Shown here piece by piece: positions 2,101-59,745 of a DNA stretch of 64,000 bases. The first letter of the stretch is position 1. Every line of letters begins with the position of its first letter. Origin of the DNA: Primulina eburnea (taxonomy: Eukaryota; Streptophyta; Magnoliopsida; Lamiales; Gesneriaceae); assembly GCF_022965805.1 (NCBI RefSeq), contig NC_133117.1:14903479-14967478 (forward strand). The letters are read 5' to 3'. Position numbers and translations under genes: made by a program. Under the pieces are notes generated by a model. The model did no database searches and had not been told where the DNA came from. It saw only the letters and a program-made list of their open reading frames with translations.

Positions 2101-2356
2101 CGCACCCGCGCCTAGAGAAGCACCGCACCCGCGGTGGATAGGCAGAAAGTTGGACATTTTTATAGTAGGGTCACCGCACCTGCGGTCCAGAGGGAGTGCA
2201 CCCGTGGTTGATGGACAGAGAGTTGGAAATTATTTACAGAAATGACACCGCACCCGCGGTGCAGAACTGACCGCGCCCGCGGTCGACTTTTATGAATTTT
2301 TGGAAGACTTGCTGAAGCTTGAGCGCACCCGCGCTACTGAAGCCACCGCACCCGCG
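2101..2356 (+). repeat. Inverted-repeat array, CGCACCCGCG motif, 8 copies (element A LTR U3)
   Basis: Eight cores read CGCACCCGCG or one-to-two-base variants, within ACCGC-ACCC-GCGGT inverted repeats. Core starts: 2101, 2124, 2175, 2197, 2249, 2272, 2324, 2347. Spacings: 23, 51, 22, 52, 23, 52, 23. Spacer sequences differ from one another. The array ends about 50 bp before the TATA-like box, so it lies in the U3 promoter region. Confidence 0.9.
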
Positions 2357-2406
2357 GTCATACGTGGTGCTTGAAAAATAAGACACTTGCCTCTCAACAT
2401 GCAGGA

Positions 2407-2413
2407 TATATAT
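2407..2413 (+). promoter_or_regulatory. TATA-like box of element A LTR
   Basis: TATATAT about 50 bp after the last array motif. F shows the same 51-bp gap from motif end to TATA. Assigned by position and composition only. Confidence 0.5.
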
Positions 2414-2784
2414 GTGTATGTGTCTTCATTTCTTCAGATTCCCTCAGCTGAGAAACGAAAGGAAAAGGGTTCCAAACCTTCTTCATAACTTAGAAGTTGA
2501 TTTGTGAAAGAATTACACATCCAAACTACAATTCAAGCATAGATTTGTGTTCCTTGCATCAAGAGCTATCTAGAGATGTAAGTATTGTTCAGTTCTAGCA
2601 TGATTTAGATTTCATGTATTGAAAGAATTTTGATATGATGATTAGTATGAGTTCTTATCATGTGGAATATAGTATATTCGAAATCGGACCGAAGAAATAG
2701 TACCGTATGCTATTTTAACGATTTTACAGCATGTACCGAGTTGGGAATGTGCAAATATCAGAACTGATATGTGTTTATGATGTG

Positions 2785-4072
2785 ATTCCCCACAGTAAAA
2801 CTACCCAAAACACGACGTTCACCCTACGACACATACAATTCCAAAAACGTGGCAATTGACACCAAATCGTTTCCTACGACTACTAATGTACTTGAGTGCC
2901 TATCGATACCAAACGACATATCAAATAACAACCCAACATCATACTAAGCATACCTAGACGCAGCAACGATCAACCGTCGATCCCCAACGAAGGTTACAAC
3001 AATAAAACTTCAAGAACACATCAATACATAATTTTCTGAAAAACGCAGTTTGACCAGTCCCACGAAAAACATCATAGCTCAATCAAATTTTATCCAAATA
3101 TTTCTAATTTACTGTCAAATCGAAGGTATTGAAATGTTCTACAATTTTCTTGTTGAAAGTTTTCTCAGAATCACGACTGAAAAGTCGCAGTTTTAAAAAT
3201 ATAGTAAAAACGAGTTTTCAGATCTAAAAACTATTTCAAAACTTATCCAAACCTATTTCCGCTCAAACAACAAATGTCACACATAAAATTTTACGTATAA
3301 AAATAACAAGGCACATAATATGACTAGATCGATGCAGAAATAACAGAATATACGTGCCTTTGATATTTAAAATACCGCAACGACGATACCGAAGCGGAGA
3401 TGGCGTGAGGATTGATTCGGGACTAACGTGGCGCTAAAATCTGGTAATAAAATTCACGAAAAGTTGCTAGAATGATGAAGGGATGGGGCGGCTGCTGTGG
3501 AATTTAGAACCCTAGGTTTCTCTCCTCTCAAAATAATAAAATTCTGAATTTGAAACGTGTGTGTGTGTTATATGGTTTGTGTGTGTGTATTGTTAATTAG
3601 GAGAAAATTTGCTTAAATCAGTAATTAGCAAGGTAATTTAAAATACTAACTCCCTTAACAAGTTAATAAAAATAGTAAAAATTACTACACACTCCTAATA
3701 AAATCCCTTAATTAAAATAACACACATAAAATGCTAACTCTAAAAGTTTCAAACTCTTAATTCGCTAAATAAATAATTTAGGCTTTAAAAATACTAACAA
3801 CCTAATAAATTAGTTAAAATACCACAACCTCAACTTAAAATAAAATACCACATTAAAATTTCCAAAATCGTCACCGGTCGTTTCCTCGATTGCGCCTCGA
3901 ATAATCGCCTGAAACATGAAACACGAAAAACATTTTAACGTGCATCACATAAACATTAAAATAATGAAATTAAATAAATCATGCACTACTAAGACTCGTT
4001 TTAAAATTAAATAAATGCTTTAGCAATTAAATAAATGCATGGGTTATAAGTGTACTGAATTTGGACACTACA
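2785..4072 (-). mobile_element. Old LTR of the D family (minus), left edge unclear
   Basis: About 1.3 kb, AT-rich and non-coding. From about 3030 to 4072 it aligns by eye with 53830-54880: shared AAAACGCAGTTTGA, ATCGAAGGTAT, AATGCATGG and the end ...CTACA at 4072. Read on the minus strand it starts TGTAGTGTCC, a normal LTR start. No polypurine tract or primer site flanks it, so it is a solo or truncated LTR. The left edge was not resolved, and no duplication was found. Confidence 0.55.
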
Positions 4073-4315
4073 GTAGTAGATTTCGTCAGGGAATTTTTCA
4101 GGGGCTGTCACCTTGTGCCCATGATTGCAAATGATGGCCAGGAGAAGCTGAGGCATTTTATGGATGGGTTGCGCCGATCTTGCACCGTGATATTCGAGTT
4201 GCTGGTCCTAGGACTTATGCAGTTTCCGTGTCGAGAGCTTAGGCGGCAGGGCAGGACCAGAGGGACATTGAGGTCGATAGGCATGGCAAGAGGCCCTATC
4301 AAGAACGAAACTTAG
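4073..4315 (+). pseudogene. gag remnant of old gypsy element D
   Basis: Encodes a recognisable gag core: a DFVREFFRGC start, then EKLRHFMDGLR, typical of the plant chromovirus capsid region. A further gag segment continues in other frames through 4310 (DQRDIE-like), so there are frameshifts. It abuts the end of the D-family LTR with no primer site between. Neither gag end is complete. Confidence 0.65.
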
Positions 4316-5004
4316 GATTAAGTGGATATGAGTAATGGAATTAGGTTATCTAAGACTACTTGGATTGTGTAAGTTATAATTTCAAGTTTATGAAATAGGT
4401 GATCATACGGGGATATTTGGTGAAATAAAAACAAAATGGAATTAGTTGATTTATTAGAATTAGTCCATCATTAACAGGGGAAACTTATTAAGCTTTATAC
4501 ATTCGAATGAATTAAGTATTGAGAATACGTCAAAGTGTGACATTATGAGGAAGGTTTAAGTGTCTTAGGCCTCAACTATAATGTAATTGGGAAGGATATA
4601 ATTTAAGCATGTGTTTGATGCTAGGAAGGTTTTATTATCTAATCAGAATATCAATATTCTATATTTTGTGGTTTATGGATTAATGTTACTCGAAATTTAA
4701 GATTAGCAACAATCTTTATTTGGGATGTACTTGTAAATAGCTAAGTTACGTAAGTTTGATGTCGTAAGGTAAAGATTCGATTCTAGGATCGTAGGTCAAT
4801 ATTACGGGGTTAAGACAAGGTTTAACTTTTGAGTGTAGTACCAATGATAGAAAGTTGATCAGTAATTTTTTGTGCGAAGATTTCTTATATTGAACTACAT
4901 AAATGCTAATGTAATAGATCGATGAACATTACGGGTATAGTATAAGGAAAATAAGCTACGATAAGTTTGAACCTCCATTTCTAATATTGGGAATTGTGAG
5001 AAAG
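4316..5004. other. AT-rich stretch between D gag and D pol, nothing recognised
   Basis: About 690 bp with stops in all frames. It probably holds decayed zinc-knuckle, protease and RT-start sequence of element D, since RT similarity resumes at about 5005, but I cannot identify motifs here. Confidence 0.3.
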
Positions 5005-7303: not shown

Positions 7304-8692
7304 TGTTGTGTGTTTTCTTAATTGCTTGCAAGTGCACAACGTCAAGTTATAGTAAAATGTAATTTTGAGTACAAGTGTCGATCCCACGAGGAATGTATTT
7401 CTAAATTTATATTAATGCTTGTAATTAAAATAGTCTTGATTTTATTTAGAATAATCAAATAACAGATTTGTTCGCATCAATAACTGAATTGAAAATAAAT
7501 TTAATTGTAATACCAAACAGAGTTGAACAACAATGGAATAAAAGATCTAGAGGTCCGATTTCACGCAACTATCTACCATGTGTATTTTTGTGTAGCTATA
7601 TTATATTTATCCTTCTTATTCATTAGCCAAGAATTCTAAAATCATCTACTCCCTCTCCCGAGTGTTAAGCAGATACTAATTATCTAATAAAAGATTGTAA
7701 TGTCCCCATCAACAACCTATAATTAAATAACACAATAAGCACTCAAGTCTTTTAATGGCTTCAATAGCATTATATGTCCTCCCGAACTATAAAAATACTA
7801 TCGATGTATTTTTCCCTTTCTTGTTTATAAATTCCCTTTTCCAAGTGATAATTTATAAACATAAGCATCATTCAAGATATGGCCAATAAATTGAAAGCAT
7901 TAAAATTGGAAACATACAAATGAACAATAAGGAAATCTCATATAGCATAAATCATAAATCATCACACATGGTTTCTAGTTTTGATCCATCGTTCCTCTAG
8001 AAATAAAAATTAGTTCATAATAAAAATAACACAACACACAAATCTTAAACAAAACATAGTAAATAACAATGAAAGTAAAGAAAGAAGAACTTAGAACAAG
8101 AGTTTTGGAGTTCAAATGAAGCTTTTATCCAAAGATGTGCAAGAACTTTCCCAAGGATGCACTTGATCTTTAATCCCTTTGTTGTAGCCTCCAATCCTTT
8201 CCTTTTGCTCCAAGATGCCCTAGATGATGAATAATGGAGGCTTTTTATAGTCCTCAACAAGTCTTGCACGCAAAACACCAAAGTCTTCAAGTCCCATGCG
8301 CAGCACACCATAGTTTCACAATTTTCGGAAGTTGTCTGTGCATGACCGCGGGTGCGGTAATCTAAGGAGCTCGGGTGCGGTGTCTTCTCGGCAGAAATTC
8401 TCATGTGCAACTGGTGATACCGCAGGTGCGGCGCTTGCATGACCGCGGGTGCGGTCATGCCTCGTAAATCAGCGCGGGTGCGGCATTGTAAGAAGCGCGG
8501 GTGCGGTCTCTTGCTTTGTGTCTCTTTGTCCTTTACACCTTCTAATTCATCACTATATCACTCCAAACTCTCATTTCTAAGCTTCCAAACTACAATAACA
8601 AAAACAACAACATATCAAATAAAACCTGCTCAAAAATCACAAAATTCCAAGTTAAAAACAAGTAATAAAAGTACAATAAATTGCACTTATCA
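7304..8692 (-). mobile_element. Athila 3' LTR
   Basis: 1,389 bp, near-identical to 23473-24861. On the minus strand it opens TGATAAGTGC and ends ...ACACAACA. It carries six CGCGGGTGCG motifs (8347-8505) and a TATA box. Two motifs are decayed relative to the 5' LTR: CTCGGG at 8370 and CGCAGG at 8421, each losing a CpG. Confidence 0.95.
8347..8505 (-). repeat. Inverted-repeat array, CGCGGGTGCG motif, 6 copies (Athila 3' LTR)
   Basis: Core starts on the plus strand: 8347, 8370, 8421, 8444, 8473, 8496. Spacings: 23, 51, 23, 29, 23. The motif is the reverse complement of the CGCACCCGCG motif of elements A and F. It lies upstream of the LTR TATA box. Confidence 0.9.
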
Positions 8693-8710
8693 AACTCCCC
8701 CAAAATTAAG
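8693..8710 (-). other. Polypurine tract of the Athila element
   Basis: On the minus strand CTTAATTTTGGGGGAGTT lies directly before the 3' LTR start, the expected plus-strand primer. Confidence 0.85.
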
Positions 8711-10245: not shown

Positions 10246-10254
10246 GGCCATGTT

Positions 10255-10533
10255 CGGATCCTCCGAACAACACTTCGGAACGTCCGAACGCTACGTGTCC
10301 ATTGGCTCTTGACAGCTCATGATCGGATCCTCCGATCATACACTTCGGACCGTCCGAACATGCACGTGTCCAGCTGCTCTTGACACCTCATGATCGGATT
10401 CAACGAACTACACTTCGGAACGTCCGAACTCCCACGTGTCGATCAACTCTTGACACCTAATGATCGGATCCACCGAACTCACTTCGGATCGTCCGAACGC
10501 TTCTGTGCTTCCGAACCATCTTCGGTCCGTCCG
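10255..10533 (-). repeat. Inverted-repeat array, CGGATCNTCCG-type motif, 9 copies (LTR 1)
   Basis: Imperfect inverted repeats with TTCGGA/TCCGAA arms. Core starts: 10255, 10276, 10324, 10346, 10395, 10416, 10465, 10485, 10523. Spacings: 21, 48, 22, 49, 21, 49, 20, 38. Copies recur in LTR 2 (12138-12416) and LTR 3 (14022-14300). Spacers carry ACGTGTC, a G-box/ABRE-like element, once per roughly 70-bp unit (about 10293, 10364, 10434). The nearest core begins 10 bp from the TATA box. Confidence 0.9.
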
Positions 10534-10619
10534 ATCATGACTCGGTCAAAATTACACATTAAACCTTCTTAATCACCATTACTCCGTTAATTACCCAATT
10601 TGGAATTCGGGCTACTACA

Positions 10620-10999: not shown

Positions 11000-12502
11000 T
11001 GTAGTGACCCGTTCCAGAATCACCTACTAGGCAAGAACTAAGCATGCAATTAACCTAATTAACAATAATCAGAGATAACAGCGGAAAATTCAACAACAAT
11101 ACCGATTATACAACCCAATCGAAGTCTAGAATAACTCAAAAATAAAATATCCAATACAACCATATCGAATCAAAACAATACCGATAAACTAAACCAACCA
11201 GATACTCACGTCCTCCTCCTGCTCCTCCTGAGCTGTCCAACCTGAGGCCTGCCCCGAGGGAATGGGGTGTCCAAGAATAAACAAAACCGAGGACGTGAGC
11301 GATAAGAACGCCCAGTACAAAAGTATGAGTATACAGACCTATATGAAATGCACATGCTATGATCATGATACCGGGGTAGTCAAGAAACAGGAGTCACAAA
11401 AGGATCTCAACAATGCTCAGTCTAGAGGCGCCAAGTGGATAGTGCCGCGCGGTACACCTCTGGGTCATGCATCCACTACAAGACAGACGTGGACCTAAAA
11501 TGTCCCGGACCACCGAAGCCCTCCCGACCCGTCGGCCACTGTGTACTCTCGGTGTCCATGCGTCCACAAGACAGGGCTGAGCGGCCCCAAGATATAGCTT
11601 ATCTCGAAAGAGATACAGCTCAACAGTAAAGGCTATCTCGAAGGAGAATACGGCTCAACATGAAATGCAACGTGCAGTAATAACCGTGACATAATAACAT
11701 GCATCATATGACATATAACAATGCAGCAAATACTCATGCAACACATATATGAATGTATACTCAACCAGGATATCTCGGATAGTACTTTCGTACCTCTATC
11801 ACAGCAAGCCTAGCCTTACGCAACACCGCTAATCAGGTCTAGAACAAGCCTACGCATCAAAAGCATACTCAATCAATACTACCATGCTCGACTAGCAAAA
11901 CCAGTACTCCCTAGTACTACCAAAGGTTTAGGGTTTACCTTCGTCCGTCGACAGCCCTTTGATGTCGATTGCCTTGAAACTCAGGCGCCGCTACGCTACT
12001 ACTCCTGGCAGCTCTTGGCTATCGCTCGACCAACAACTAACCCTAGAAACCTTCCAAATCCTCTCAACTATGAGGCAAAACTCAAGAAATTGGCAAGTCA
12101 CAAATGAGAAATCCGAGCACTATTTATAGGCCATGTTCGGATCCTCCGAACAACACTTCGGAACGTCCGAACTCTACGTGTCCATTGGCTCTTGACAGCT
12201 CATGATCGGATCCTCCGATCATACACTTCGGACCGTCCGAACATGCACGTGTCCAGCTGCTCTTGACACCTCATGATCGGATTCAACGAACTACACTTCG
12301 GAACGTCCGAACTCCCACGTGTCGATCAACTCTTGACACCTAATGATCGGATCCACCGAACTCACTTCGGATCGTCCGAACGCTTCTGTGCTTCCGAACC
12401 ATCTTCGGTCCGTCCGATCATGACTCGGTCAAAATTACACATTAAACCTTCTTAATCACCATTACTCCGTTAATTACCCAATTTGGAATTCGGGCTACTA
12501 CA
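11000..12502 (-). mobile_element. Triple-LTR unit, LTR 2
   Basis: 1,503 bp, near-identical to LTR 1. Visible differences include AATTC for AGTC-type at 11069 and CTCTACG for CGCTACG near 12173. Array at 12138-12416. Confidence 0.95.
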
Positions 12503-12883: not shown

Positions 12884-14386
12884 TGTAGTGACCCGTTCCA
12901 GAATCACCTACTAGGCAAGAACTAAGCATGCAATTAACCTAATTAACAATAATCAGAGATAACAGCGGAAAAGTCAACAACAATACCGATTATACAACCC
13001 AATCGAAGTCTAGAATAACTAGAAAATAAAATATCCAATACAACCATATCGAATCAAAACAATACCGATAAACTAAACCAACCAGATACTCACGTCCTCC
13101 TCCTGCTCCTCCTGAGCTGTCCAACCTGAGGCCTGCCCCGAGGGAATGGGGTGTCCAAGAATAAACAAAACCGAGGACGTGAGCGATAAGAACGCCCAGT
13201 ACAAAAGTATGAGTATACAGACCTATATGAAATGCACATGCTATGATCATGATACCGGGGTAGTCAAGAAACAGGAGTCACAAAAGGATCTCAACAATGC
13301 TCAGTCTAGAGGCGCCAAGTGGATAGTGCCACGCGGTACACCTCTGGGTCATGCATCCACTACAAGACAGACGTGGACCTAAAATGTCCCGGACCACCGA
13401 AGCCCTCCCGACCCGTCGGCCACTGTGTACTCTCGGTGTCCATGCGTCCACAAGACAGGGCTGAGCGGCCCCAAGATATAGCTTATCTCGAAAGAGATAC
13501 AGCTCAACAGTAAAGGCTATCTCGAAGGAGAATACGGCTCAACATGAAATGCAACGTGCAGTAATAACCGTGACATAATAACATGCATCATATGACATAT
13601 AACAATGCAGCAAATACTCATGCAACACATATATGAATGTATACTCAACCAGGATATCTCGGATAGTACTTTCGTACCTCTATCACAGCAAGCCTAGCCT
13701 TACGCAACACCGCTAATCAGGTCTAGAACAAGCCTACGCATCAAAAGCATACTCAATCAATACTACCATGCTCGACTAGCAAAACCAGTACTCCCTAGTA
13801 CTACCAAAGGTTTAGGGTTTACCTTCGTCCGTCGACAGCCCTTTGATGTCGATTGCCTTGAAACTCAGGCGCCGCTACGCTACTACTCCTGGCAGCTCTT
13901 GGCTATCGCTCGACCAACAACTAACCCTAGAAACCTTCCAAATCCTCTCAACTATGAGGCAAAACTCAAGAAATTGGCAAGTCACAAATGAGAAATCCGA
14001 GCACTATTTATAGGCCATGTTCGGATCCTCCGAACAACACTTCGGAACGTCCGAACGCTACGTGTCCATTGGCTCTTGACAGCTCATGATCGGATCCTCC
14101 GATCATACACTTCGGACCGTCCGAACATGCACGTGTCCAGCTGCTCTTGACACCTCATGATCGGATTCAACGAACTACTCTTCGGAACGTCCGAACTCCC
14201 ACGTGTCGATCAACTCTTGACACCTAATGATCGGATCCACCGAACTCACTTCGGATCGTCCGAACGCTTCTGTGCTTCCGAACCATCTTCGGTCCGTCCG
14301 ATCATGACTCGGTCAAAATTACACATTAAACCTTCTTAATCACCATTACTCCGTTAATTACCCAATTTGGAATTCGGGCTACTACA
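12884..14386 (-). mobile_element. Triple-LTR unit, LTR 3
   Basis: 1,503 bp, near-identical to LTRs 1 and 2. Private changes include ACTAGAAAA near 13020 and GCCACGCGG near 13329. Array at 14022-14300. It ends at 14386, followed by ACTCT. Confidence 0.95.
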
Positions 14387-15571: not shown

Positions 15572-16735
15572 TCAGTGGTCATTGCCATCATCCTCTTCAT
15601 CGTCATCAGGGTTGGGTTGTTGTTGGAACTCTGGCGGGTGGTAGACAGGTGGCCACTGTGGAGGAGGTGGAAATGGATGTCCCGAAGTGGCAGCAGAGGG
15701 AAATTGATGAGCCAAGGCTGATGTGAAATCCATCATGTAATCGATGAATGTATCGGTCCGATACCGAAAAGCATCCATCTCTTGGCGTGATACCCTCATA
15801 TCCTCCTCCAACTGATTCAGCCTATTTCTCCTATGCCTTTGCTGTGGCTGTGGCTCTTGAGCTTGGGCTTGGTCACGCCTCTCTGCAGCTCTCCGATTAA
15901 ATTCCCTTTCAGCTCTTCGTGCTGCAGCTTGCTCATTTCTGAATCCCATAAATGCCTGAGCTATCACAATAGGATTTTTAGGCTTCAGAACTTCTTCATT
16001 TGGTGCCCAAGTAACCCCCATATGTTGGCATAAAACAGTGATGAGAGAGGGGTGGAGAAGTCCACTCGGAGAGTTGCCACATGCATAATCGTAAATTGAA
16101 TTTTTAAGCAATCGACCTAGATCGATTGTCTTCCCTGTCATAATGCAGAATATGAGGATGGCCCTCTCCTTAATCACAGTAGTGGTGTGTTCTGTAGGCT
16201 TTATTCTGGCAGCAATGAATGAATACCAATATTTTGCCATTTCCATGAGGTCAGACTTTGCAAGGCTTAAGTGCACATTGTCTCTCATTCGCCATTCGGC
16301 TCCCTGTGTACAAATAGTTTGAAGAATATTGTCATAATCAACATACCCATTTTTGTATTCTTCGTACTCATCGTGCATTATTTCAGGAAAGCCATATACA
16401 GTGTTGATTGTCCGCGCATCAAAAGCGACCTCTTTACCTCTCACAAACACCACTAACCGATCATGTCTCACCTTCAAGTTTGCATAGAACTCTCTCACCA
16501 ATCATATGACAGCATCCTGTGGCTGTCTTCCAAACTCCTCCCACTGTCGATCCCTAAGCATTTGTTCTATTTGAGTATTAGGGTCACTAAAATCAAAACC
16601 CCTCTCCTTGATAATGCTTCGATTCAAAATTTTCCCATATTGTTCCTCCGCTTTTTCATTAAAAAATCTACTCGCATCATAGTTCACTGCTGTTGATGAA
16701 GAAGCACCCTTTGATGACTTTCTTTTCAGTGGCAT
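15572..16735 (-). pseudogene. Athila ORF3 (VREFYANL-class plant transposon protein), one in-frame stop
   Basis: The minus-strand frame from ATG at 16735 to the stop at 15572 is 388 codons, interrupted by a single TGA at 16504-16502 (codon 78). Start: basic MPLKRKSSKG. Around residues 80-250 it has VREFYANL, VRGKEVAF, the NTVYGFPE region and a GLLHPSLIT segment, which I recognise as the putative plant transposon protein domain common in Athila third ORFs (from memory). The C-terminus is Arg/Ala/Gln-rich (AARRAEREFNRRAAERR), then Pro-rich, then an acidic DDDEEDD tail. I see no signal peptide or clear membrane helix, so an envelope role is not supported. Upstream on the same strand lies the 16-copy array at 17271-17759. 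Confidence 0.85.
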
Positions 16736-16747: not shown

Positions 16748-17270
16748 CTTGTTTACACAACTTCAATTCAACCTTCTTCTCAAAATAAAAGACTTCTTGC
16801 ACTTCCCCAAACTACTTCTCAACTCACAATATACACACCACAACAATGTATACAATAATCAACCAACAATATTCCCAAAATCACAATATTATTCACCAAA
16901 TGAAATTTCCTTCCAAAGCAACAAATTTCGAATTTTTTCAACAAATATGAGATGAATATGCTCACCTTGGATGTGTTGAATTGTTTCTTGAAGAACAAAA
17001 ACAAATTTCCACTCAAATCTTGAAGAAATTTCGAACCCCCTTTTTCAAACCCTAGGCTTGGATTTGAAATTTTCTTGAAAGGAATTGATATTTGATGGAA
17101 TGGGTTAAGATATTTTGGTTGGGAGTAGTAAATTTGAGGAAGGAATCACAAAAAATGAGTGTGAAAATAGTTTGGTTGAGAGAAGATTTCGAAAATGGAA
17201 GAGGTGTTCTTGAGAAGGAATTTTCGATTGTGTCTAGAAATGCCCAATTTTTGCCTTAAAAACGTATGAC
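16748..17270 (-). other. Leader between the array and Athila ORF3
   Basis: About 520 bp of AT-rich sequence upstream of ORF3 on the minus strand, with no supported gene. I see no convincing TATA box; TTTTTAAG at 17260-17253 is the nearest candidate. Confidence 0.4.
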
Positions 17271-17759
17271 CGCGGGTGCGCTGTTTGAAAGACCGCGGGT
17301 GCGGTGGATGTTTGGGGTTGCGCGCATTTTGTAATTTTCATCACCGCGGGTGCGGTAGTGTAAGCACCGCGGTTGCGGTGTTTGTGCGAAAATGAAGCGC
17401 GGGTGCGGCGTTAGGATACCGCGGGTGCGGTACATGTTCGGCAGCTTTTGAAATTTTTCTTGTAAAATTACCGCGGGGGCGGTAGTGCAAGCACCGCAGG
17501 TGCGGTACCTGTTCGGCATTTGCATGAATTTTTTCATCGATACAGCGCGGGGGCGCTACGCTAAGCAGCGCGGGTGCGCTCTTGTCTCGGCAGTTTAGCG
17601 CAGGGGCGGTAGCTTAAGAGCGCGGGTGCGCTGTGTGTTCGGCATATACGCGCATTTCTCCATAAGGCACTACCGCGGGAGCGGTAGTGTACACACCGCG
17701 GGTGCGGTGTTTGTTCGACATTCCTAGCGCGGGGGCGCTGTCTTTGTGCTGCGGGTGCA
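17271..17759 (-). repeat. Internal inverted-repeat array, CGCGGGTGCG motif, 16 copies
   Basis: Core starts: 17271, 17294, 17345, 17368, 17398, 17420, 17472, 17495, 17546, 17569, 17599, 17621, 17674, 17697, 17728, 17750. Spacings: 23, 51, 23, 30, 22, 52, 23, 51, 23, 30, 22, 53, 23, 31, 22. The first six motifs repeat the geometry of the Athila LTR array (23, 51, 23, 29, 23), and that block recurs about every 201 bp. Variants CGCGGGGGCG, AGCGC...GCGCT and CGCAGG occur. It lies between pol and ORF3, not in an LTR. Confidence 0.9.
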
Positions 17760-18069
17760 CTCCTGCTTCGAATTTTCTGTGTTTGAATGCACCTCAAGCA
17801 TAGGTGCAGTGCTCATGAGACTGTAGGGGCACTCCTGTTTCGTCAAAATATTTTCTTCTCAAATTTTCAGTCCTGAAAAGAAAACAATTGGGATTCATTA
17901 AATTCGGGAAGATATAAACATACACTATATTAAAAATACACAACTAAAAATAACATGATTAAAATAAAATAAAAACTGAAATCACAATGCAAACAAGAAA
18001 CAAAGAATTGGGTTGCCTCCCAATAAGCGCTTGTTTTAACGTCATCAGCCTGAGTACCATGAGTCGATA
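17760..18069 (-). other. Spacer between pol and the internal array
   Basis: About 310 bp without a gene. Two weak array-like motifs (GGTGCAGTGC near 17803, GGGGCAC near 17826) suggest the array once extended further. Confidence 0.4.
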
Positions 18070-24418: not shown

Positions 24419-24515
24419 GTCCTCAACAAGTCTTGCACGCAAAACACCAAAGTCTTCAAGTCCCATGCGCAGCACACCATAGTTTCACAATTTCCGGAAG
24501 TTGTCTGTGCATGAC

Positions 24516-24674
24516 CGCGGGTGCGGTAATCTAAGGAGCGCGGGTGCGGTGTCTTCTCAGCAGAAATTCTCATGTGCAACTGGTGATACCGCGGGTGCGG
24601 CGCTTGCATGACCGCGGGTGCGGTCATGCCTCGTAAATCAGCGCGGGTGCGGCATTGTAAGAAGCGCGGGTGCG
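24516..24674 (-). repeat. Inverted-repeat array, CGCGGGTGCG motif, 6 copies (Athila 5' LTR)
   Basis: Core starts: 24516, 24539, 24590, 24613, 24642, 24665. Spacings: 23, 51, 23, 29, 23. All six cores keep CGCGGGTGCG here, unlike the 3' LTR. Confidence 0.9.
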
Positions 24675-24866
24675 GTCTCTTGCTTTGTGTCTCTTTGTCC
24701 TTTACACCTTCTAATTCATCACTATATCACTCCAAACTCTCATTTCTAAGCTTCCAAACTACAATAACAAAAACAACAACATATCAAATAAAACCTGCTC
24801 AAAAATCACAAAATTCCAAGTTAAAAACAAGTAATAAAAGTACAATAAATTGCACTTATCAATTGG

Positions 24867-27151: not shown

Positions 27152-27230
27152 TGTAGTATCCCGATGCCTAATTTGAGTTAATTATTGGATTAATTGTATT
27201 TCGGTTGGATCGGAAGGACCAAACCGGGTT

Positions 27231-27462
27231 CGGATCGTCCGAAGTTGGTTCGGATCGTCCGAAGTGGGTTCGGATGGACCGTTCTGTTCGGAGTCAGACG
27301 AGTCATGTCATGTCAGAGTTCGGATCGTCCGATCAGGGTTCGGATCGTCCGAAGACAGGTGGCTGGACACGTGGAAGACATGCAGAGTTCGGATCTTCCG
27401 AAGTGGATCGGATCTTCCGAAGTGCACCGGATCGGATCTTCCGAAGTGGATCGGATCTTCCG
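27231..27462 (+). repeat. Inverted-repeat array, CGGATCGTCCG/CGGATCTTCCG motif, 9 copies (E1 5' LTR)
   Basis: Core starts: 27231, 27251, 27271, 27321, 27341, 27390, 27409, 27433, 27452. Spacings: 20, 20, 50, 20, 49, 19, 24, 19. The distal five are GTCCG-type (one GGACCG), the proximal four TTCCG-type. A CACGTG G-box at 27369-27374 lies in the 49-bp spacer. The same array is at 33161-33392 in the 3' LTR. Confidence 0.92.
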
Positions 27463-27471
27463 ATCGTTGTC

Positions 27472-33081: not shown

Positions 33082-34420
33082 TGTAGTATCCCGATGCCTA
33101 ATTTGAGTTAATTATTGGATTAATTGTATTTCGGTTGGATCGGAAGGACCGAACCGGGTTCGGATCGTCCGAAGTTGGTTCGGATCGTCCGAAGTGGGTT
33201 CGGATGGACCGTTCTGTTCGGAGTCAGACGAGTCATGTCATGTCAGAGTTCGGATCGTCCGATCAGGGTTCGGATCGTCCGAAGACAGGTGGCTGGACAC
33301 GTGGAAGACATGCAGAGTTCGGATCTTCCGAAGTGGATCGGATCTTCCGAAGTGCACCGGATCGGATCTTCCGAAGTGGATCGGATCTTCCGATCGTTGT
33401 CTATAAATAGAAGCGCGAGGCTTCACTTTTCACTCGCCAATTCCGAGAGTTCCAGAGCGTTTTAGTCGTTTCTGATGGGTTTCTAGTCTTTTCCCGAGGT
33501 TCGGGCACTAGCGGGGAGCTACTGGTTTTGTAGCGGAGCTGTGCTCTAGTTGGGGGCTAGCGGCATCAGTGGGCTGACTACGGACGCAGGTATAGTTCTG
33601 GGTTCCCTTTGAGATTTGGGAGTATCTATTAGTCTAGTTAAGGCTTTTAGATGTGGTTTAGTGATATGGTATCACTTGGATTGTAGGCTTGATTCTAGGG
33701 CTGATTGCTAGGATCTACTGGTTTGAGGTACGAAAGTACTATCCGAGATAGCAGGATTGAGTATGCTTTACTATGTGTTGCATGTTTATATGTTGCATTA
33801 TTATCTGTCATATGATGCATGGTTTATTATGCGGCATTTGCATAATCATGTTGAGCCTGATTATCTTTGAGATAGCCTGTTGAGAGGGTGCTCAGCCCTC
33901 GTTTGTTGTGGATGGTTGGACCCCGTTGGCCGACGGTGGTCAGGTCACCGGTATATCCACAGGTTTATTTTGGTATGGGAGCCACCTCCTGGTGCGACGG
34001 CGCAGAGTGCTACATACCTTGACGTCATTTACCTGAGCAGTATTTCGATATACCCAGATCCTGGTATCCAGTACATTTTGCATACATGCATGTCATAGTC
34101 TTGTATACTCATGCTTTCGGTGCTGAGCGTTTTATGCTCACGTCCTCGGTTTATCTCTGTTTTGGACACCCTATTCGATGGGGCAGGTCTCAGGTTGGAC
34201 GGCCCAGGAGGGAGTGGACAGGGAGCTGGCAGAGGTTGACCTGTAGTTGTTGGTATTTGTTCTTAGTATTTAGTTCGATCTGGTTGTTTAAGTATTTTGT
34301 ACTTACAGATTCGATTGGGTTGTGTTACTGTTTTTCCGCTGTTTACCTGATTCAGTTTTAAATGTTAATTTTGCATGCTTAAGTTCTGATTAGTAGGTGA
34401 TTCTGGAACGGGTCACTACA
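33082..34420 (+). mobile_element. E1 3' LTR
   Basis: 1,339 bp, offset exactly 5,930 from the 5' LTR with three visible differences. Array at 33161-33392. Followed by CTTCA at 34421-34425. Confidence 0.96.
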
Positions 34421-36806: not shown

Positions 36807-36857
36807 CACTCGACATGCATTAAGGCAAATGGCTCATCCTACATGCAACACGTCTCG

Positions 36858-37018
36858 CGTATATGCGCGACCCTCCTCGGCGCATATGCGCGAGACAGTA
36901 TGTCTCGGCGCGTAGCTCGCACAGCCCCTCGCGCATATGCGTGCCCTTACTCGGCGCATATGCGCGAGGTTCTCTGGACATTTCGCGCAGATGTGCCCGG
37001 CTGGGTCGCGCATATGCG
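36858..37018 (-). repeat. Palindrome array, CGCATATGCG motif, 6 copies (B 5' LTR)
   Basis: Perfect form TCGCGCATATGCGCGA (16 bp, self-complementary). Core starts: 36858, 36881, 36932, 36955, 36986, 37009. Spacings: 23, 51, 23, 31, 23, matching the Athila LTR array (23, 51, 23, 29, 23) despite a different motif. Confidence 0.93.
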
Positions 37019-37149
37019 CGAGAGCTCATCCTCGCACATACATCTTTTCATGTTGAATTCAAACCATGTCCCGATTAATCCTCTCATACTCACCTCAAAT
37101 TATAAATCAATAATCGTCAATTAACAGCGATTAATTTTCGGGCATTATA

Positions 37150-37467: not shown

Positions 37468-39455
37468 TGTAACGCTCAGAAATTATAAGAAATAATAAGA
37501 CAAGATTATAAAGTGTTGCCAGGATGGAAAATAAGAAATTCTGGAGAATGCAGCACCGCACCCGCGGTACATGGACAGTAAATTGGCAAGAAATTCCGAA
37601 GCATCACCGCACCCGCGGTGCTAGCCAGAGCGCACCCGCGGTATAGAACAGAGCGCACCCGCGGTCATGCGTGGAGTTTGAAAAATGATGCCATGTTTCA
37701 GATTGTGCATGCAGTATATATACAGATGAATGACACGTTATTTCTTCAGAAAACTCAGCAACAAGGCACGAGAAATCCTCCCTAAAGTTCTTACGCCTTT
37801 AGATTTCGATTGTGCAAGAACCGTTTAGCAGAATTTGAATCCGACTGCAGTTCTGAGTTCCTTTAGCTACGAGCTACAAAAGGACGTAATTTTTGTTACG
37901 TTTTGAAATGTTTTGAAACTATGATGTTGTCAGAACTGAATATGATTCTGATATGGTGTTTCTACTACCGTAAACATGGTATAATCAAAGACAGATTGAA
38001 GAATAGATTGATTATACAATTGTTATGATTTTTAGAAGATATTGATTGAGTTTGAACATTAGACTTGTACTGTTCTTGATTGAAGAATATAAAGATGATT
38101 ATTCTATGTGTTCTGAATAGATTATTCCGTAGATATGTGAAGTCAGACCGAAGAAATTATACCGTATGTATGTGTATGTATTTCAGCAGCTTTGAAGTTA
38201 GATTTGTTAGATATTCATATGCTAGGATTAGAAGAATGAAATTATGGTATTGATTATCAATTTTGATATGCCGTTGAAACATCAGTTGATTCAGATCAAT
38301 CAGATTCGATATTGTTATATTATGATACTGTTGATATGAATCAGATTGTATGTTGTTCAGATATTGATCAGATTTTATACTGATGTGGGTATTGATCAGA
38401 ACAGATTGTAAATTGAGCTACACATTGATACAGTGTATTGATATTGTTATTTCAGATCGGTTATGGACAGGTTTAATTTTGAGACGTCCTCCTCGTCAGA
38501 TCAGGAAGATAAAGGTATAATTCATGTGATATTCGGGAAGAAACAACTCAATCGAGATCACCCTTGAGTTGCCCAATAAATCACATACTATATTCTTGTT
38601 TATGTTTTATCTGATCATGCTTGGTTTACTGATTGTATTCATGCATTTAAGATAGGACAGTTTGGATATCAGCCAGACTGCTAGACGTTCGGCGATATCT
38701 TAGCTTAGGGGAAGATCACCGCCCCTTTGTAGATGCGGATACAGATCAGGCCGAAGTCTAGGAATAAGACGTACAGCACCTCGATTGGTAGGGTAGGTGA
38801 CAGCCAGTGACGTCTTATTCACACCGGGATCCCTAGAGTTATAGATCAAGTCAAGTCTTGACATGATTTGAGTAGAACTGCATGCTTATATGGATGTGGC
38901 TCCTAGATCATGGGACCCATCATTACTGCTTTCAGTTGGGTTAGCATGTTTTGTGATTAAGATTGTTTATATGCATGTTTATCTGATTTGAGTTGCATGC
39001 TTATTTGATTAATTTCATAGATTATGAAATAGATTGTTTCTATACATGATAGCATGTTTTATAAATTAGTTTGTCTATATACATGCTTACCATGTTTTAT
39101 ACTGGGATTTGTTCTCACCGGAGTTATCCGGCTATTGTCGTGTCTGTATGTGTGCATGGCAACAGGTGGGGCAGGATCTGGGTCACGAGGAAGATGAGAA
39201 ATTGTTGATAGCGTGGAGATCTCGGGCGTTGCAGCTTACTAGTTGTTTGTACTAGATTTGTACTGAAACTTTTAAACACTAGTGTATGATTGTACAAAAC
39301 AGACATGTATGTACATTATGTTGATTTAATATAAAGACAAAATATGCTTTAATTATACATTTGAATTAATGTTAAAAGCAAATTTTTGACCCACATTTTC
39401 TAGCAAAGATCCAATTAAATCCCAAAAGAATTGAGTTAGAGCCCGGGTCCCCACA
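37468..39455 (+). mobile_element. F 5' LTR
   Basis: TGTAACGCTCAG...GGTCCCCACA. Four-copy array, TATATATA at 37715-37722. The later part (GTTATCCGGCTATTGTCGTG, about 39122) matches the B/C LTR on the other strand. Confidence 0.94.
37557..37663 (+). repeat. Inverted-repeat array, CGCACCCGCG motif, 4 copies (F 5' LTR)
   Basis: Core starts: 37557, 37608, 37631, 37654. Spacings: 51, 23, 23. TATA follows 51 bp after the last motif. Confidence 0.92.
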
Positions 39456-43328: not shown

Positions 43329-45359
43329 TGTAACGCTCAGAAATTATAAGAAATGATAAGACAAGATTATAAAGTGTTGCCAGGATGGAAAATAAAAAAT
43401 CTGGAGAATGCAGCACCGCACCCGCGGTGCTAGACATCACCGCACCCGCGGTACATGGACAGTAAATTGGCAAGAAATTCCGAAGCATCACCGCACCCGC
43501 GGTGCTAGCCAGACCGCACCCGCGGTGCCAACACCGCACCCGCGGTACAGAACAGAGCGCACCCGCGGTCATGCGTGGAGTTTGAAAAATGATGCCACGT
43601 TTCAGATTGTGCATGCAGTATATATACAGATGAATGACACGTTATTTCTTCAGAAAACTCAGCAACAAGGCACGAGAAATCCTCCCTAAAGTTCTTACAC
43701 ATTTAGATTTCGAATGTGCAAGAACCGTTTAGCAGAATTTGAATCCGACTGCAGTTCTGAGTTCCTTTAGCTACGAGCTACAAAAGGACGTAAGTTTTGT
43801 TACGTTTTGAAATTTTTTGAAACTATGATGTTGTCAGAACTGAATATGATTCTGATATGGTGTTTCTACTACCGTAAACATGGTATAATCAAAGACATAT
43901 TGAAGAATAGATTGATTATACAATTGTTATGATTTTTAGAAGATATTGATTGAGTTTGAACATTAGACTTGTACTGTTCTTGATTGAAGAATATAAAGAT
44001 TATTATTCTATGTGTTCTGAATAGATTATTCCGTAGATATGTGAAGTCAGACCGAAGAAATTATACCGTATGTCTGTGTATGTATTTCAGCAGCTTTGAA
44101 GTTAGATTTGTTAGATATTCATATGCTGGGATTAGAAGAATGATATTATGGTATTGATTATCAATTTTGATATGTCGTTGAAACATCAGTTGATTCAGAT
44201 TAATCAGATTCGGTATTGTTATATTATGATACTGTTGATATGAATCAGATTGTATGTTGTTCAGATATTGATCAGATTTTATACTGATGTGGGTATTGAT
44301 CAGAACAGATTGTAAATTGAGCTACACATTGATACAGTGTATTGATATTGTTATTTCAGATCGGTTATGGACAGGTTTGATTTTGAGACGTCCTCCTCGT
44401 CAGATCAGGAAGATAAAGGTATAATTCATGTGATATTCAAGAAGAAACAACTCAATCGAGATCACCCTTGAGTTGCCCAATAAATCACATACTATATTCT
44501 TGTTTATGTTTTATATGATCATGCTTGGTTTACTGATTGTATTCATGCATTTAAGATAGGACAGTTTGGAGATCAGCCAGACTGCTAGACGTTCGGCGAT
44601 ATCTCAGCTTAGGGGAAGATCACCGCCCCTTTGTAGATGCGGATACAGATCAGGCCGAAGTCTAGGAATAAGACGTACAGCACCTCGATTGGTAGGGTAG
44701 GTGACAGCCAGTGACGTCTTATTCACACCGGGATCCCTAGAGTTATAGATCAAGTCAAGTCTAGACATGATTTGAGTAGAACTGCATGCTTATATGGATG
44801 TGGCTCCTCGATCATGGGACCCATCATTACTGCTTTCAGTTGGGTTAGCATGTTTTATGATTAAGATTGTTTATATGCATGTTTATCTGATTTGAGTTGC
44901 ATTCTTATTTGATTAATTTCATAGATTATGAAATAGATTGTTTCTATACATGATAGCATGTTTTATAAATTAGTTTGTCTATATACATGCTTACCATGTT
45001 TTATACTGGGATTTGTTCTCACCGGAGTTATCCGGCTGTTGTCGTGTCTGTATGTGTGCATGGCAACAGGTGGGGCAGGATCTGGGTCATGAGGAAGATG
45101 AGAAATTGTTGATAGCATGGAAATCTCGGGCGTTGCAGCTTACTAGTTGTTTGTACTAGATTTGTACTGAAACTTTTAAACACTAGTGTATGATTGTACA
45201 AAACAGACATGTATGTACATTATGTTGATTTAATATAAAGACAAAATATGCTTTAATTATACATTTAAATTAATGTTAAAAGCAAATTTTTTACCCACAT
45301 TTTCTAGCAAAGATCCAATTAAATCACAAAAGTATTGAGTTAGAGCCCGGGTCCCCACA
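43329..45359 (+). mobile_element. F 3' LTR
   Basis: 2,031 bp. 43 bp longer than the 5' LTR, largely explained by two extra array motifs. TATATATA at 43619-43626. Confidence 0.94.
43417..43567 (+). repeat. Inverted-repeat array, CGCACCCGCG motif, 6 copies (F 3' LTR)
   Basis: Core starts: 43417, 43441, 43492, 43515, 43535, 43558. Spacings: 24, 51, 23, 20, 23. TATA lies 51 bp after the last motif, as in the 5' LTR. Confidence 0.92.
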
Positions 45360-46008
45360 AATCCCGATATCCCCGTCAATACAATAACAACAGATATTAA
45401 TTACAATCAATAACTGATATCCAATACAATCTGTAATCAATCCATAATTCAAATCTGTCCAATATCAACCAATATAATATGAAAAACCATAACAATTCCA
45501 TAATCAATCTGTTTCTTAATCTGACTTCGATTCTACGATGTCTGACATGTCAAGAACCTCATATATGAATCATATTCGATTCCAGCAATATCATAATTTC
45601 AAATCTTAACAAAATGTAATAAAACTTACGTCCAGTAGTAGCTGTCGTCCATAGAATCACGGTACTGTGTTCGGATTTAAACTGATAAACGGATCGAATA
45701 AACTCCCAACTCAAAGTCGATGGAAGCTCCAAGTTTTCAGAGGAATTCTCGTTTCTTATTGTCTGAATAATGAACCACTGCACAACTCGCGCATATGCGC
45801 GCAAACCCTCCGCGCATATGCACGAGGTCCTCTGCCCACTTCGCGGATATGCGCGCATCAGTGTCGCGCATATGCGCTAAGGGTACTGTTCCTCGCACAC
45901 ATTTTATGTATTTTCTCGTTTTTCCCGGTCCGATCCTTTCCGTCCATAATTACAGCAAATTATAAATCAATAATCGCAAATTAACAAATAAAAATCCCGG
46001 GCATTACA
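45360..46008 (-). mobile_element. Element C 3' LTR, right piece
   Basis: Starts with the AATCC duplication and ends (minus start) at TGTAATGCCCGGG, 46008. Against the 5' LTR it lacks about 270 bp (counterpart of about 52275-52550), including the AT run at the TATA position and half of the array. Confidence 0.9.
45790..45876 (-). repeat. Palindrome array, CGCATATGCG motif, 4 copies (C 3' LTR)
   Basis: Core starts: 45790, 45813, 45844, 45867. Spacings: 23, 31, 23, equal to the distal half of the 5' LTR array. Confidence 0.9.

Positions 46009-52292: not shown

Positions 52293-52370
<78 letters not shown>
52293..52370. repeat. AT microsatellite in the C 5' LTR
   Basis: 78 bp of AT dinucleotides at the TATA position on the minus strand, about 47 bp downstream of the proximal palindrome. 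Confidence 0.95.
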
Positions 52371-52372
<2 letters not shown>

Positions 52373-52417
52373 TTCATGTAATTGACGTGTGGCTCATCCT
52401 TTGATAAACATGTCTCG

Positions 52418-52651
52418 CGCATATGCGCGACCTACATCGGCGCATATGCACGAGACCTACTGGTCTCAGCAATAACATCTCGGCAGCTCGCGCATATGCG
52501 TGCCCTCCTGTCGCGCATATGCGCGAGGTTCTCTGGACATGAACTTGAACCACTGCACAACTCGCGCATATGCGCGCACACCCTCTGCGCATATGCGCGA
52601 GGTCCTCTACCCACTTCACGCATAGGCGCGCATCAGTGTCGCGCATATGCG
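52418..52651 (-). repeat. Palindrome array, CGCATATGCG motif, 8 copies (C 5' LTR)
   Basis: Core starts: 52418, 52441, 52491, 52514, 52565, 52588, 52619, 52642. Spacings: 23, 50, 23, 51, 23, 31, 23. Several copies are the perfect 16-bp palindrome TCGCGCATATGCGCGA. One copy (52619) is degraded. Confidence 0.94.
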
Positions 52652-52783
52652 CGAGGGGTACTGTTCCTCGCACACATTTCATGTATTTTCTCGTCTTTCC
52701 CGGTCCGATCCTTTCCGTCCATAATTACAGCAAATTATAAATCAATAATTGCAAATTACCAAATAAAAATCCCGGGCATTACA

Positions 52784-54880: not shown

Positions 54881-55441
54881 CTAACCATGAGCCAACCCCT
54901 ACCATCCCATGACTAGATTACCCCGAAGACCCCTTTGGACCATCACGACTTAGCCTAAGACCTGATTATAGTCCCTGCACCGAGCCATGAACAAAATTCC
55001 CAAACCATGTGCATGTGGTGATCAAGCGGCCAAGCTGCTTTGTTCCAGCCCTTGCCCACGAACCAGGCACGACTCAACCCTCTTAGGTCATCTGGATGCA
55101 ACCCAAAAATGACACACAGCCTGCACCCTCCAAAGAAATGTAATAGGTGAACTGAAGTGCTTTTGTACGGTGAATTTTTTTATTTCCTCTGATGAGACAC
55201 GTGGCAGTTCGTAATTGGAACAAAAATATTTTTGAAAAATTGGTAAATTGATTTGAAGTTGAATAATCATTCAACCATCACAACTTGATATGGAATTAAA
55301 CTGAGTTAAGAATCAGTCTACTAAATGATGAGATCATTTTGTCTAAAATAACAAAATTGTAGTTTAGGGAACTAAACTGACAATCAGTTGAGCTCAAGGT
55401 AAGCTGACTTTTGTCTTATCAGTTGAGCATCTTAACAATCA
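54881..55441. other. Non-coding stretch, possibly including a copia 3' LTR
   Basis: No gene seen to 55180. From about 55180 to 55441 the sequence lies beyond a polypurine-like tract (minus TTAATTAAGGGGGATAT, 55458-55442) of the copia remnant, and begins TGATTGTTAAG on the minus strand, so it could be that element's 3' LTR. No other copy is here to test this. Confidence 0.35.
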
Positions 55442-58730: not shown

Positions 58731-58732
58731 GT

Positions 58733-58744
58733 TGGTATCAGAGC
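58733..58744 (+). other. Element G primer binding site
   Basis: TGGTATCAGAGC, 2 bp after the LTR end. Initiator-Met-tRNA type. Confidence 0.9.
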
Positions 58745-58976
58745 GTAACTGGGATATGCTCGAATTAGAGTCTAGGACATTTGAGTCTAGACACAAATAA
58801 AATGATTGTGCCTGTGTTTGACTATTTGCTCTTATTTGAATTATTTGGTGTGATTTGCTTGAATTTACCTGCGTTAGAACGACTAGCTGATTAGGCATGG
58901 TATGTAGTTTAGAAATTGCCTATAACTTTCTTTTACCTGTTATCTGCCTGTGGATTTAATCCTCGTGTCTTGTAGA

Positions 58977-59289
58977 ATGGCACCTGGAGGAAGAGGTAGA
59001 AAAGGAAAAGAAATAGCGCAAGAATGTGAGGCGCAAAATGTTCGAGGACTTGCAGATATCATTAGAGGTAGACGTGGTCGGCCTCGAGGACAAGTCGCTC
59101 AAAATGTTGAAGAAGAAGTGAACCAAGAACCTCCTCGACCTGAAAGACCTGGAGCTAGACAGGTAGCGATTGAGAAAGAAGTGGAACAGCTGACACAGAA
59201 AGTTGGAGGAATGCAGTTAATAATTTCTCAGTTTCAATAATTACGTCCTCCAAAATTCTTTGGCAACGAGAGCGGAGAAAAAGCAGCAG
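58977..59289 (+). pseudogene. Element G gag, 5' end only
   Basis: ATG at 58977 (MAPGGRGRKGKE), basic and Gly-rich N-terminus, then EQLTQKVGGMQ and a stop TAA at 59238-59240 where relatives normally read a Gln or Arg before LRPP. The frame continues with LRPPKFFGNESGEKAA to 59289, where unrelated LTR sequence begins. About 87 codons before the stop. Gag type fits a chromovirus. Confidence 0.8.
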
Positions 59290-59434
59290 TGTAACGTACC
59301 GTACTTAACTACTTGAATTTTGCGGAAAAATTAAAAATTTTATTCAAATAAAACATCCGTACGGTCGTCACCCAACATTCATAAAAATATCTTTAAAGTA
59401 ATTAATCGTCAAATAAAAGTTTGCTAAAAACAAC
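59290..59434 (+). mobile_element. LTR stub H
   Basis: 145 bp starting TGTAACGTACCGTAC inside G gag and ending where E2 starts. The TG start and position suggest the first part of another LTR element, split by E2. The rest would lie beyond the window. Confidence 0.45.
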
Positions 59435-59513
59435 TGTAGTATCCCGATGCCTAATTTGAGTTAATTATTGGATTAATTATATTTCGGTGGGATCGGAAGG
59501 ACCGAACAGAGTT

Positions 59514-59745
59514 CGGATCGTCCGAAGCGGGTTCGGATCGTCCGAAGAGGGTTCGAATCGTCCGAAGACAGGTGTCTGGACACGTGGAAGACATGCAGAG
59601 TTTGGATCGTCCGATCAGGGTTCGGATCGTCCGAAGACAGGTGTCTGGACACGTGGAAGACATGCAAGGTTCGGATCGTCCGATCAAAGTTCGGATCGTC
59701 CGAAGTGTGCCGGATCGGATCTTCCGAAGTGGATCGGATCTTCCG
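59514..59745 (+). repeat. Inverted-repeat array, CGGATCGTCCG/CGGATCTTCCG motif, 9 copies (E2 LTR)
   Basis: Core starts: 59514, 59534, 59554, 59603, 59623, 59672, 59692, 59716, 59735. Spacings: 20, 20, 49, 20, 49, 20, 24, 19. Two CACGTG boxes (59581-59586 and 59650-59655) lie in the 49-bp spacers. TATAAATA at 59755-59762 is 10 bp after the array and 320 bp from the LTR start, exactly as in E1, although the motif variants differ. Confidence 0.92.

Follow-up and report, generated by a model that had tools for sequence, protein, structure and literature searches.

Can a promoter keep its layout while the sites that compose it are rewritten, and if so, what reads that layout? The question is raised by a stretch of 64,000 nucleotides from Primulina eburnea (contig NC_133117.1, positions 14,903,479 to 14,967,478; hereafter the window), which is a nest of gypsy-order elements, one inside another. 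Their long terminal repeats (LTRs) carry arrays of short, CpG-rich inverted repeats, or dyads, almost always upstream of a TATA-like word. A first-pass annotation of the window had listed the spacings of these sites and saw in them a single promoter geometry, built from different palindromes in distinct gypsy lineages. Its observation we confirmed; its interpretation was partly supported. What is new here is the mostly paired, fixed distances between dyads, a switch of core at a matching site in two related LTRs, and the presence of one module both in the LTR and at an internal position of a single element. The arrays could be enhancer sites in the U3 region of the LTR, serving a putative dimeric DNA-binding protein, a reading to which the sequence gives about an even chance.

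The arrays and their cores

An exact-core search of the window found 15 arrays, 14 of them in LTR copies and one internal to an Athila-like element (a name we assume from its look, without a tree). In these arrays a degenerate scan placed 125 dyads: 8, 4, 6, 6, 6 and 17 in the R-type arrays, 6, 4 and 8 in the B-type arrays, and 10 in each of six arrays of E/T type. Coordinates are positions in the window, and gaps run from core to core in base pairs.

2099..2358, plus strand: A array, in a 3' LTR; R-type, 8 dyads; gaps 23,51,22,52,23,52,23; TATA-like word at 2407
37555..37665, plus strand: F 5' LTR array; R-type, 4 dyads; gaps 51,23,23; TATA-like word at 37715
43415..43569, plus strand: F 3' LTR array; R-type, 6 dyads; gaps 24,51,23,20,23; TATA-like word at 43619
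8345..8507, minus strand: Athila-like 3' LTR array; R-type, 6 dyads; gaps 23,29,23,51,23 in sense order; TATA-like word at 8249
24514..24676, minus strand: Athila-like 5' LTR array; R-type, 6 dyads on the plan of the Athila-like 3' LTR; TATA-like word at 24418
17269..17810, minus strand: Athila internal array; R-type, 17 dyads (two with 3 and 4 mismatches); promoter-proximal gaps 22,30,23,51,23
36856..37020, minus strand: B1 array; B-type (CGCGCATATGCGCG), 6 dyads (one with 3 mismatches); gaps 23,31,23,51,23
52416..52653, minus strand: B2 5' LTR array; B-type, 8 dyads; gaps 23,31,23,51,23,50,23
45788..45878, minus strand: B2 3' LTR array; B-type, shortened, with 4 dyads against 8 in the B2 5' LTR
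27209..27464, plus strand: E1 5' LTR array; E-type (WTCGGANNNTCCGAW), 10 dyads; gaps 20,20,20,50,20,49,19,24,19; TATAAA at 27472
33139..33394, plus strand: E1 3' LTR array; E-type, the same array as in the E1 5' LTR, 10 dyads; TATAAA at 33402
59492..59747, plus strand: E2 5' LTR array; E-type, 10 dyads; gaps 20,20,20,49,20,49,20,24,19; TATAAA at 59755
10253..10535, minus strand: triple-LTR element, LTR 1 array; E/T-type, 10 dyads; gaps 20,18,20,49,21,49,22,48,21; TATAAA at 10245
12136..12418, minus strand: triple-LTR element, LTR 2 array; the same array as in LTR 1; TATAAA at 12128
14020..14302, minus strand: triple-LTR element, LTR 3 array; the same array as in LTR 1; TATAAA at 14012

The R dyad reads ASCGC-NCCC-GCGST, the B dyad CGCGCATATGCGCG and the E/T dyad WTCGGA-NNN-TCCGAW. 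All three core types have CpG at both ends, as the first-pass annotation said. Its description of three distinct inverted repeats of 10-11 bp needs amending: CGCACCCGCG is no 10-bp palindrome (its arms are 3 bp and the dyad is a 14-mer), and the R and B cores, with CGCA...GCG in common, share 7 of 10 bases and differ only in the middle three of the 10-mer. These words belong to the arrays. Degenerate 14-15-mers, run on both strands, gave 46 matches for R and 34 for B (at most 2 mismatches each) and 102 for E (at most 1) inside the arrays, and none of any type in the 56,624 bp outside them. Looser settings outside the arrays brought up 2 R matches at 3 mismatches and 81 at 4, 4 B matches at 4, and 2 E matches at 2 mismatches and 116 at 3. 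The site catalogue itself used looser settings inside arrays, and 122 of its 125 sites have at most 2 mismatches. The word CGGANNNTCCG occurs 41 times in the six E/T arrays and nowhere else in the window.

A fixed menu of distances

Spacing, spacer and covariation tests were run on 81 of the 125 sites, the F 5', Athila 3', B2 3' and E1 3' copies and two of the three triple-LTR copies being set aside. In the six non-redundant R/B arrays, 45 of 45 gaps fall at 20-24, 29-31 or 49-53 bp; in the three non-redundant E/T arrays (E1, E2 and the triple-LTR array, T) the 27 gaps fall at 18-24 and 48-50 bp, both sets of ranges being read off these data. The modes are 23 and 51 for R/B and 20 and 49 for E/T, and the ranges overlap. 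The single geometry across motifs proposed by the first-pass annotation thus holds for R and B, which use the same gap ranges, and not for the E/T modes. Its spacing lists (for A, F, the Athila LTR, E1, the triple LTR, a 'B' that is our B1 and a 'C' that is the B2 5' LTR array at 52.4 kb) were reproduced once the degenerate sites it had skipped were added; it gave no list for E2 and missed the Athila internal array.

With the same number of sites placed at random over the same span, the probability of all gaps falling in the menu was 0 to 0.0048 for six arrays, the menu coming from those same arrays. A menu learned from R arrays only took in 5 of 5 gaps of B1 (P 0.00075) and 6 of 7 of B2 (P 0.001), together with 6 of 9 in E1 (P 0.018), 8 of 9 in E2 (P 0.00015) and 5 of 9 in T (P 0.06). 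Learned from A and F only, it took in 4 of 5 gaps of the Athila LTR (P 0.0029) and 11 of 16 of the Athila internal array (0 of 20,000 placements did as well). One six-site plan recurs in two lineages: 23,31,23,51,23 in B1, 23,29,23,51,23 in the Athila LTR and 22,30,23,51,23 at the end of the Athila internal array.

Pairs are the usual unit, which bears out part of the paired-site module that the first-pass annotation had in mind, although sites are not always paired: the F 3' LTR has a run of 23,20,23, and the E arrays open with four sites 20 bp apart. All 18 distances from pair to pair in the six R/B arrays are 52-54 or 73-76 bp (a count that omits the first, unpaired site of the Athila internal array), or about 5 and 7 turns of DNA. 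At a fixed period of 10.5 bp, phase coherence is 0.54-0.82 in all six R/B arrays (P 0.002-0.005 against random placement).

The geometry also turned up in another sequence. A 77-aa protein (P0021, from a 789-bp ENA contig), the only match at E 10 or better among 49 candidates, is an E-type array read as protein. Its decoded frames give gaps of 19,48,20,48,20,24,19 and 15 bp to TATAAA, where the last eight E2 sites have 20,49,20,49,20,24,19 and 15. This is a single case, decoded with words written with the data in view, and applied to E2 the decoder finds 8 of the 10 sites. A protein search with a frame of the Athila array returned none at E 10 or better among 51 candidates. Two-core patterns for R, B and E also matched 43, 13 and 1 stretches of viral DNA, and 12 of bacterial genomes; from titles and match lists we took these to be chance or unrelated. 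Separately, a contig of a bacterial metagenome-assembled genome (L050, 1616-1805) has the double E-core pattern three times, each 72 bp from the next, so that words of this kind form a tandem array there.

Around the promoter

A TATA-like word lies downstream of 13 of the 14 LTR arrays, one short of the universal rule in the first-pass annotation; at the B2 3' LTR array none was found in 45480-46010. In all six E/T arrays the last dyad centre lies 15 bp from TATAAA. A TA microsatellite occupies the TATA position in B1 and in the B2 5' LTR (36754-36806, 26.5 copies, and 52293-52370, 39 copies).

Two other short words keep company with the dyads. Counted from the core that opens a pair, YNGAR, a word picked after viewing the alignment, starts at offset -10 in 13 of 19 R/B cases; all other offsets together give 9 of 486. 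Leaving out the Athila internal array, the count at -10 is 7 of 11. After the last R dyad, CATRC is common to A, F, the Athila LTR and the Athila internal array. By eye, the long E/T spacers (27354-27387 and 10289-10321, for example) have a word of their own: GACACGT, in 6 of 7 of those of E1 5', E2 and T1, often with GTGTC or CTGTC upstream. We take GACACGT to be a G-box-like word.

An array inside the Athila-like element

The largest array of all lies outside any LTR found by self-comparison, between the pol open reading frames (ORFs) and an extra ORF near the 3' end.

15572..16735, minus strand: extra ORF, downstream of the Athila internal array; Pfam Transposase_32 in 15572-16501; in-frame ATG at 16735

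This ORF has one in-frame stop (16502-16504), and its position, taken by itself, suggests an env-like gene. In the interval between array and ORF are TTTTTAAGG, a pyrimidine-rich, leader-like stretch and a GTGAGC donor-like site near 16966, before the ATG.

Descent of the arrays and probable replacement of the core

Are the equal distances independent or inherited? In the region downstream of TATA, LTR-body identity is 66% for B and F, 51% for A and B and 49% for A and F, and B and F came out closest in every one of 1000 bootstraps. A, F, B1 and B2 can also be aligned between the last dyad and TATA. Since the LTR bodies of A, B and F are related, as is the coding sequence of A and B, equal distances among them need no convergence, and by sequence comparison their plan may be inherited. 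The argument of the first-pass annotation, that equal distances across different motifs go beyond tandem duplication, is not supported in that form for these three, and of its distinct gypsy lineages only the Athila-like element looks like one. Outside the array and its edge, blast finds a single 78-bp patch in common between the Athila LTR and A, B or F, and that with F only.

The spacers tell the same families apart. Long spacers align within A (z 2.4) and within the Athila internal array (z 5.1), and similarity is present between A and F (z 5.5), F and the Athila internal array (z 4.2) and E and T (z 5.6). Between B and the R arrays it was sought and not found (z 0.3 for A, 1.0 for F, 1.2 for the Athila LTR, 1.3 for the Athila internal array), nor was there any between the long spacers of E/T and R/B (z -1.0 to 1.9). 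Among short spacers, those of the Athila LTR resemble those of the Athila internal array (z 4.2); for B against the R arrays the values are 0.2-1.9. The claim that spacers diverge while cores and distances persist is right, then, for the spacers and distances of B against the R arrays; the core of B differs, and long-spacer similarity persists when A is compared with F, the Athila internal array with F, or E with T.

B against F is the telling comparison. At equal position before TATA the core is different in all B sites, as the proposed turnover in concert would have it; the long spacers cannot be aligned, and the distances are unchanged. The closest LTR bodies, a changed core and the same distances together make the strongest point for a geometry kept across a core change, which the sequences suggest. 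On the grouping given by coding sequence, in which F would be the outgroup, the change of core again falls on the B branch, provided that R is ancestral. As for the R arrays, the CATRC word common to Athila, A and F, together with the long-spacer similarity between the Athila internal array and F, suggests one module that spread.

What might read the arrays?

On the reading we favour, each dyad would bind a host protein dimer on two half-sites (ASCGC, CGCGC or WTCGGA). Dyads would mostly have been built and amplified as pairs. Because R/B pairs recur at about 5 or 7 helical turns, bound dimers would face one way, and the TATA on which they would jointly act lies 15-103 bp downstream. That the R module occurs in two related LTRs (A and F), in the Athila-like LTR and before the 3' ORF of that element would most likely reflect the spread of one module. 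In the B lineage a changed pair would have been re-amplified, replacing the core in every site and keeping the plan. The half-sites speak for protein. Significant covariation of the arms, sought at variable R and E/T pairs as support for an RNA hairpin, was not found: 26 of 37 sites are complementary at R pair 1/12 (shuffle mean 21.8, P 0.10), 35 of 37 at R pair 2/11 (P 0.07) and 18 of 30 at E/T pair 0/14 (shuffle mean 17.4, P 0.57). Half-sites that vary largely independently are easier to reconcile with two protein subunits bound to DNA than with a base-paired stem in RNA.

Several results pull the other way. Both R pairs do lean towards complementarity, and the asymmetric R centre has one orientation in all R sites, which a symmetric dimer would not need. 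Tandem duplication within arrays makes sites non-independent, and all the array P values are optimistic for that reason. Coherence at 10.5 bp was sought in the three E/T arrays and not found (P 0.135, 0.266 and 0.882); with the period left free between 9 and 12 bp, these arrays fit 9.95-10.0 bp instead (P 0.003-0.028), and the R/B arrays, with best periods of 10.55-10.75 bp, give P values of 0.000, 0.012, 0.043, 0.057, 0.094 and 0.098. The case for descent of one module is weakened by the Athila LTR, whose long spacers cannot be aligned with A or F spacers (z 1.3 and 1.0). Finally, coding sequence groups the elements otherwise than the LTR bodies do, A and B being 77% identical over 1973 bp of pol and F and B about 66% in gag, though different genes are compared.

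The main rival is neutral turnover of a minisatellite, which we regard as possible, if on the improbable side. An ancestral pair would have been copied by slippage and unequal exchange, and re-expansion from a mutated pair would swap the core and carry the unit lengths along; the geometry would be inherited and not selected. The 5' and 3' LTRs of F, and those of B2, differ by array segments gained or lost, which in F are whole core-plus-spacer units, two of those in the 3' LTR being absent from the 5' LTR. Tandem Repeats Finder calls a repeat unit of 73 bp in A, one of 70 bp in the triple LTR, and units of 69 bp in E2 and 52 bp in the Athila internal array. The related LTR bodies of A, B and F fit as well, and so do the long spacers that align inside A, inside the Athila internal array and from A to F. 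Turnover accounts less readily for the B long spacers, which fail to align with A, F or Athila despite those related bodies and yet keep their lengths within 1-2 bp; for an Athila LTR that has the plan with nothing but the 78-bp F patch in common beyond the array; and for a YNGAR word retained at a single offset.

Could the cores matter only as CpG? Dense symmetric CpG at fixed spacing, with two CpGs 8-9 bp apart per dyad, might be a platform on which methyl-CpG is read, recruiting methyl readers or a demethylation or anti-silencing complex. If methyl-CpG is read and the core sequence is not, different cores would serve equally. Over 13 LTR copies the cores hold 15.3-25.0 CpG per 100 bp, against 0-8.6 in array spacers and 1.1-4.1 in the rest of the LTR (the cores being about 4 to 19 times as dense in CpG as this remainder), which along with the CpG at both ends of every core type is what a platform would want. 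Arabidopsis has CG methyl-readers of opposite effects (preprint PMC12632923), and in other plant transposons the tandem motifs to which VANC proteins bind diverge rapidly (PMC5735166). We think a platform unlikely nonetheless, since the non-CpG centre (NCCC, ATAT) and the outer bases are kept within core types, beyond CpG, and a Pfam scan of 18 of 20 long ORFs gave no VANC-like family.

Least probable of all, and in our judgement very unlikely, is that the dyads fold as hairpins in the U3 transcript and persist because these stabilise the RNA, help to package it or trap small RNAs, an idea put forward for the LTR palindromes of maize Sireviruses: in its favour are the lean of the two R pairs, the excess of small RNAs on palindromic LTR regions in those elements (PMC10760457, PMC5311732) and the folding of the E2 array RNA better than 200 of 200 shuffles (z -6.2) and of the A array better than 195 of 200 (z -2.2), the two arrays that were folded; against it are the lack of significant covariation, mismatched outer pairs in 11 of 37 R sites (1/12) and 12 of 30 E/T sites (0/14), predicted E2 and A folds that partly pair distant stretches instead of forming one hairpin per dyad, and the want of any obvious reason in RNA for fixed distances between hairpins.

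The dimer reading can be widened, tentatively and with rather more doubt than belief. Plant Ty3/gypsy elements might share a paired-dyad module in which the plan (a pair at 23 bp, pairs 5 or 7 turns apart) is selected and read by a protein assembly of fixed shape, the core being rewritten in all sites as elements switch between related host factors, and the module moving from lineage to lineage and into internal promoters. Should the distances be under selection, the arrays would be an assay for the plant factor driving abundant gypsy elements, and would show how a promoter changes its recognition code with its architecture retained. The Sirevirus palindrome system would then extend to a second superfamily, including its arrangement of promoter plus internal ORF, with convergence or module exchange as testable alternatives.

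Known systems of the same kind

Palindromic boxes before a TATA are themselves already known. The RM boxes of Sireviruses, which are Ty1/copia elements, are CpG-rich palindromes before TATA, with extra boxes before an env-like gene, and are called Sirevirus-specific relative to classic copia elements (PMC2829016, 2010). The dyads in the window resemble them in being palindromic, CpG-rich, present in many copies and upstream of TATA in the LTR, and 17 extra dyads likewise stand before the extra 3' ORF of the Athila-like element. Of eight RM consensus words sought, that of HOPIE (CGGACCGTCCG) is present exactly in the triple-LTR arrays (10346, 12229 and 14113) and seven are absent. The CGG-CCG signature of RM boxes is present in E/T, within CGGANNNTCCG, and absent from R and B, whose arms are CGC/GCG. 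RM boxes number at least 8 copies per element; here there are, per array, 10 (E1, E2, T), 8 (A, B2 5'), 6 (Athila LTR, B1, F 3') or 4 (F 5', B2 3'), plus the internal 17 of the Athila-like element. Clusters of RM boxes form CpG islands; for the arrays of the window the corresponding measure is the CpG density given above. The host elements differ, being gypsy-order and not Ty1/copia Sireviruses, and regular pairing with a fixed menu of gaps is not described for RM boxes in the available part of PMC2829016. Since RM boxes are called Sirevirus-specific, we class the arrays as a gypsy variant working like RM boxes and not as a member of that group.

Other plant transposons offer looser parallels. 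The cis-region of the maize Sireviruses Ji and Opie (Bousios et al. 2016, via the citing papers PMC10760457 and PMC5311732) has fast-evolving clusters of LTR palindromes and is a small-RNA hotspot, in copia elements of maize. VANC targets in VANDAL elements (PMC5735166, PMC10398659) are short motifs, repeated in tandem in the non-coding parts of the transposons, and they differ from one related element to the next; there the binder is encoded by the element and the motif, YAGTATTAY, is not palindromic, and no such family appeared in the ORFs scanned here. The heat-responsive elements of ONSEN/COPIA (PMC5059998) are clustered LTR sites for a host factor, strengthened by duplication of a proto-site. 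Those are clusters of three or more adjacent nGAAn units for HSFA2, unlike the CpG-rich dyads at 20-23 and about 50 bp in the window, whose cores by look, with no scan made for nGAAn units, do not resemble them. The listings of literature searches over open-licence PMC papers showed no Ty3/gypsy report of such arrays, and a search for six core words gave no paper.

The elements of the window

The elements that carry the arrays are as follows; the LTR ends of F, A and B1 are approximate.

7304-24862, minus strand: Athila-like element, LTR pair 7304-8693 and 23473-24862, 99.4% identical
9117-14386: triple-LTR element, nested in the Athila-like element
27151-34423: E1, nested in B1
about 37468-45360: F element
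about 45368-52783: B2
from about 59434: E2
A: 3' part of a gypsy element, with a weak chromodomain match, below the Pfam cut-off, in ORF 1312-1854

Reverse transcriptase and RNaseH precede integrase, the gypsy order, in the Athila-like element and E1, and E1 has a chromodomain match as weak as that of A, again below the cut-off. Among the 20 ORFs of at least 180 aa, the Pfam scan of 18 returned gag, protease, reverse transcriptase, RNaseH, integrase, SH3, the weak chromodomain and Transposase_32, with nothing in two. A gag protein of the window is up to 76% identical to Primulina proteins, and all 20 matches listed are from Primulina or Henckelia; a piece of the E1 polyprotein had no relative among the viral contigs searched. 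The triple-LTR element has its three LTRs (1503 bp, 99.7% identical) separated by two short inner stretches, each about 380 bp long, in tandem as LTR-inner-LTR-inner-LTR. Two further repeats lie apart from all of this: a copy pair of about 1.1 kb at 3030-4075 and 53826-54883, 72% identical and assigned to no element, and, outside the arrays, a tandem repeat at 53383-53595 with a 111-bp unit in 1.9 copies, 87% matching.

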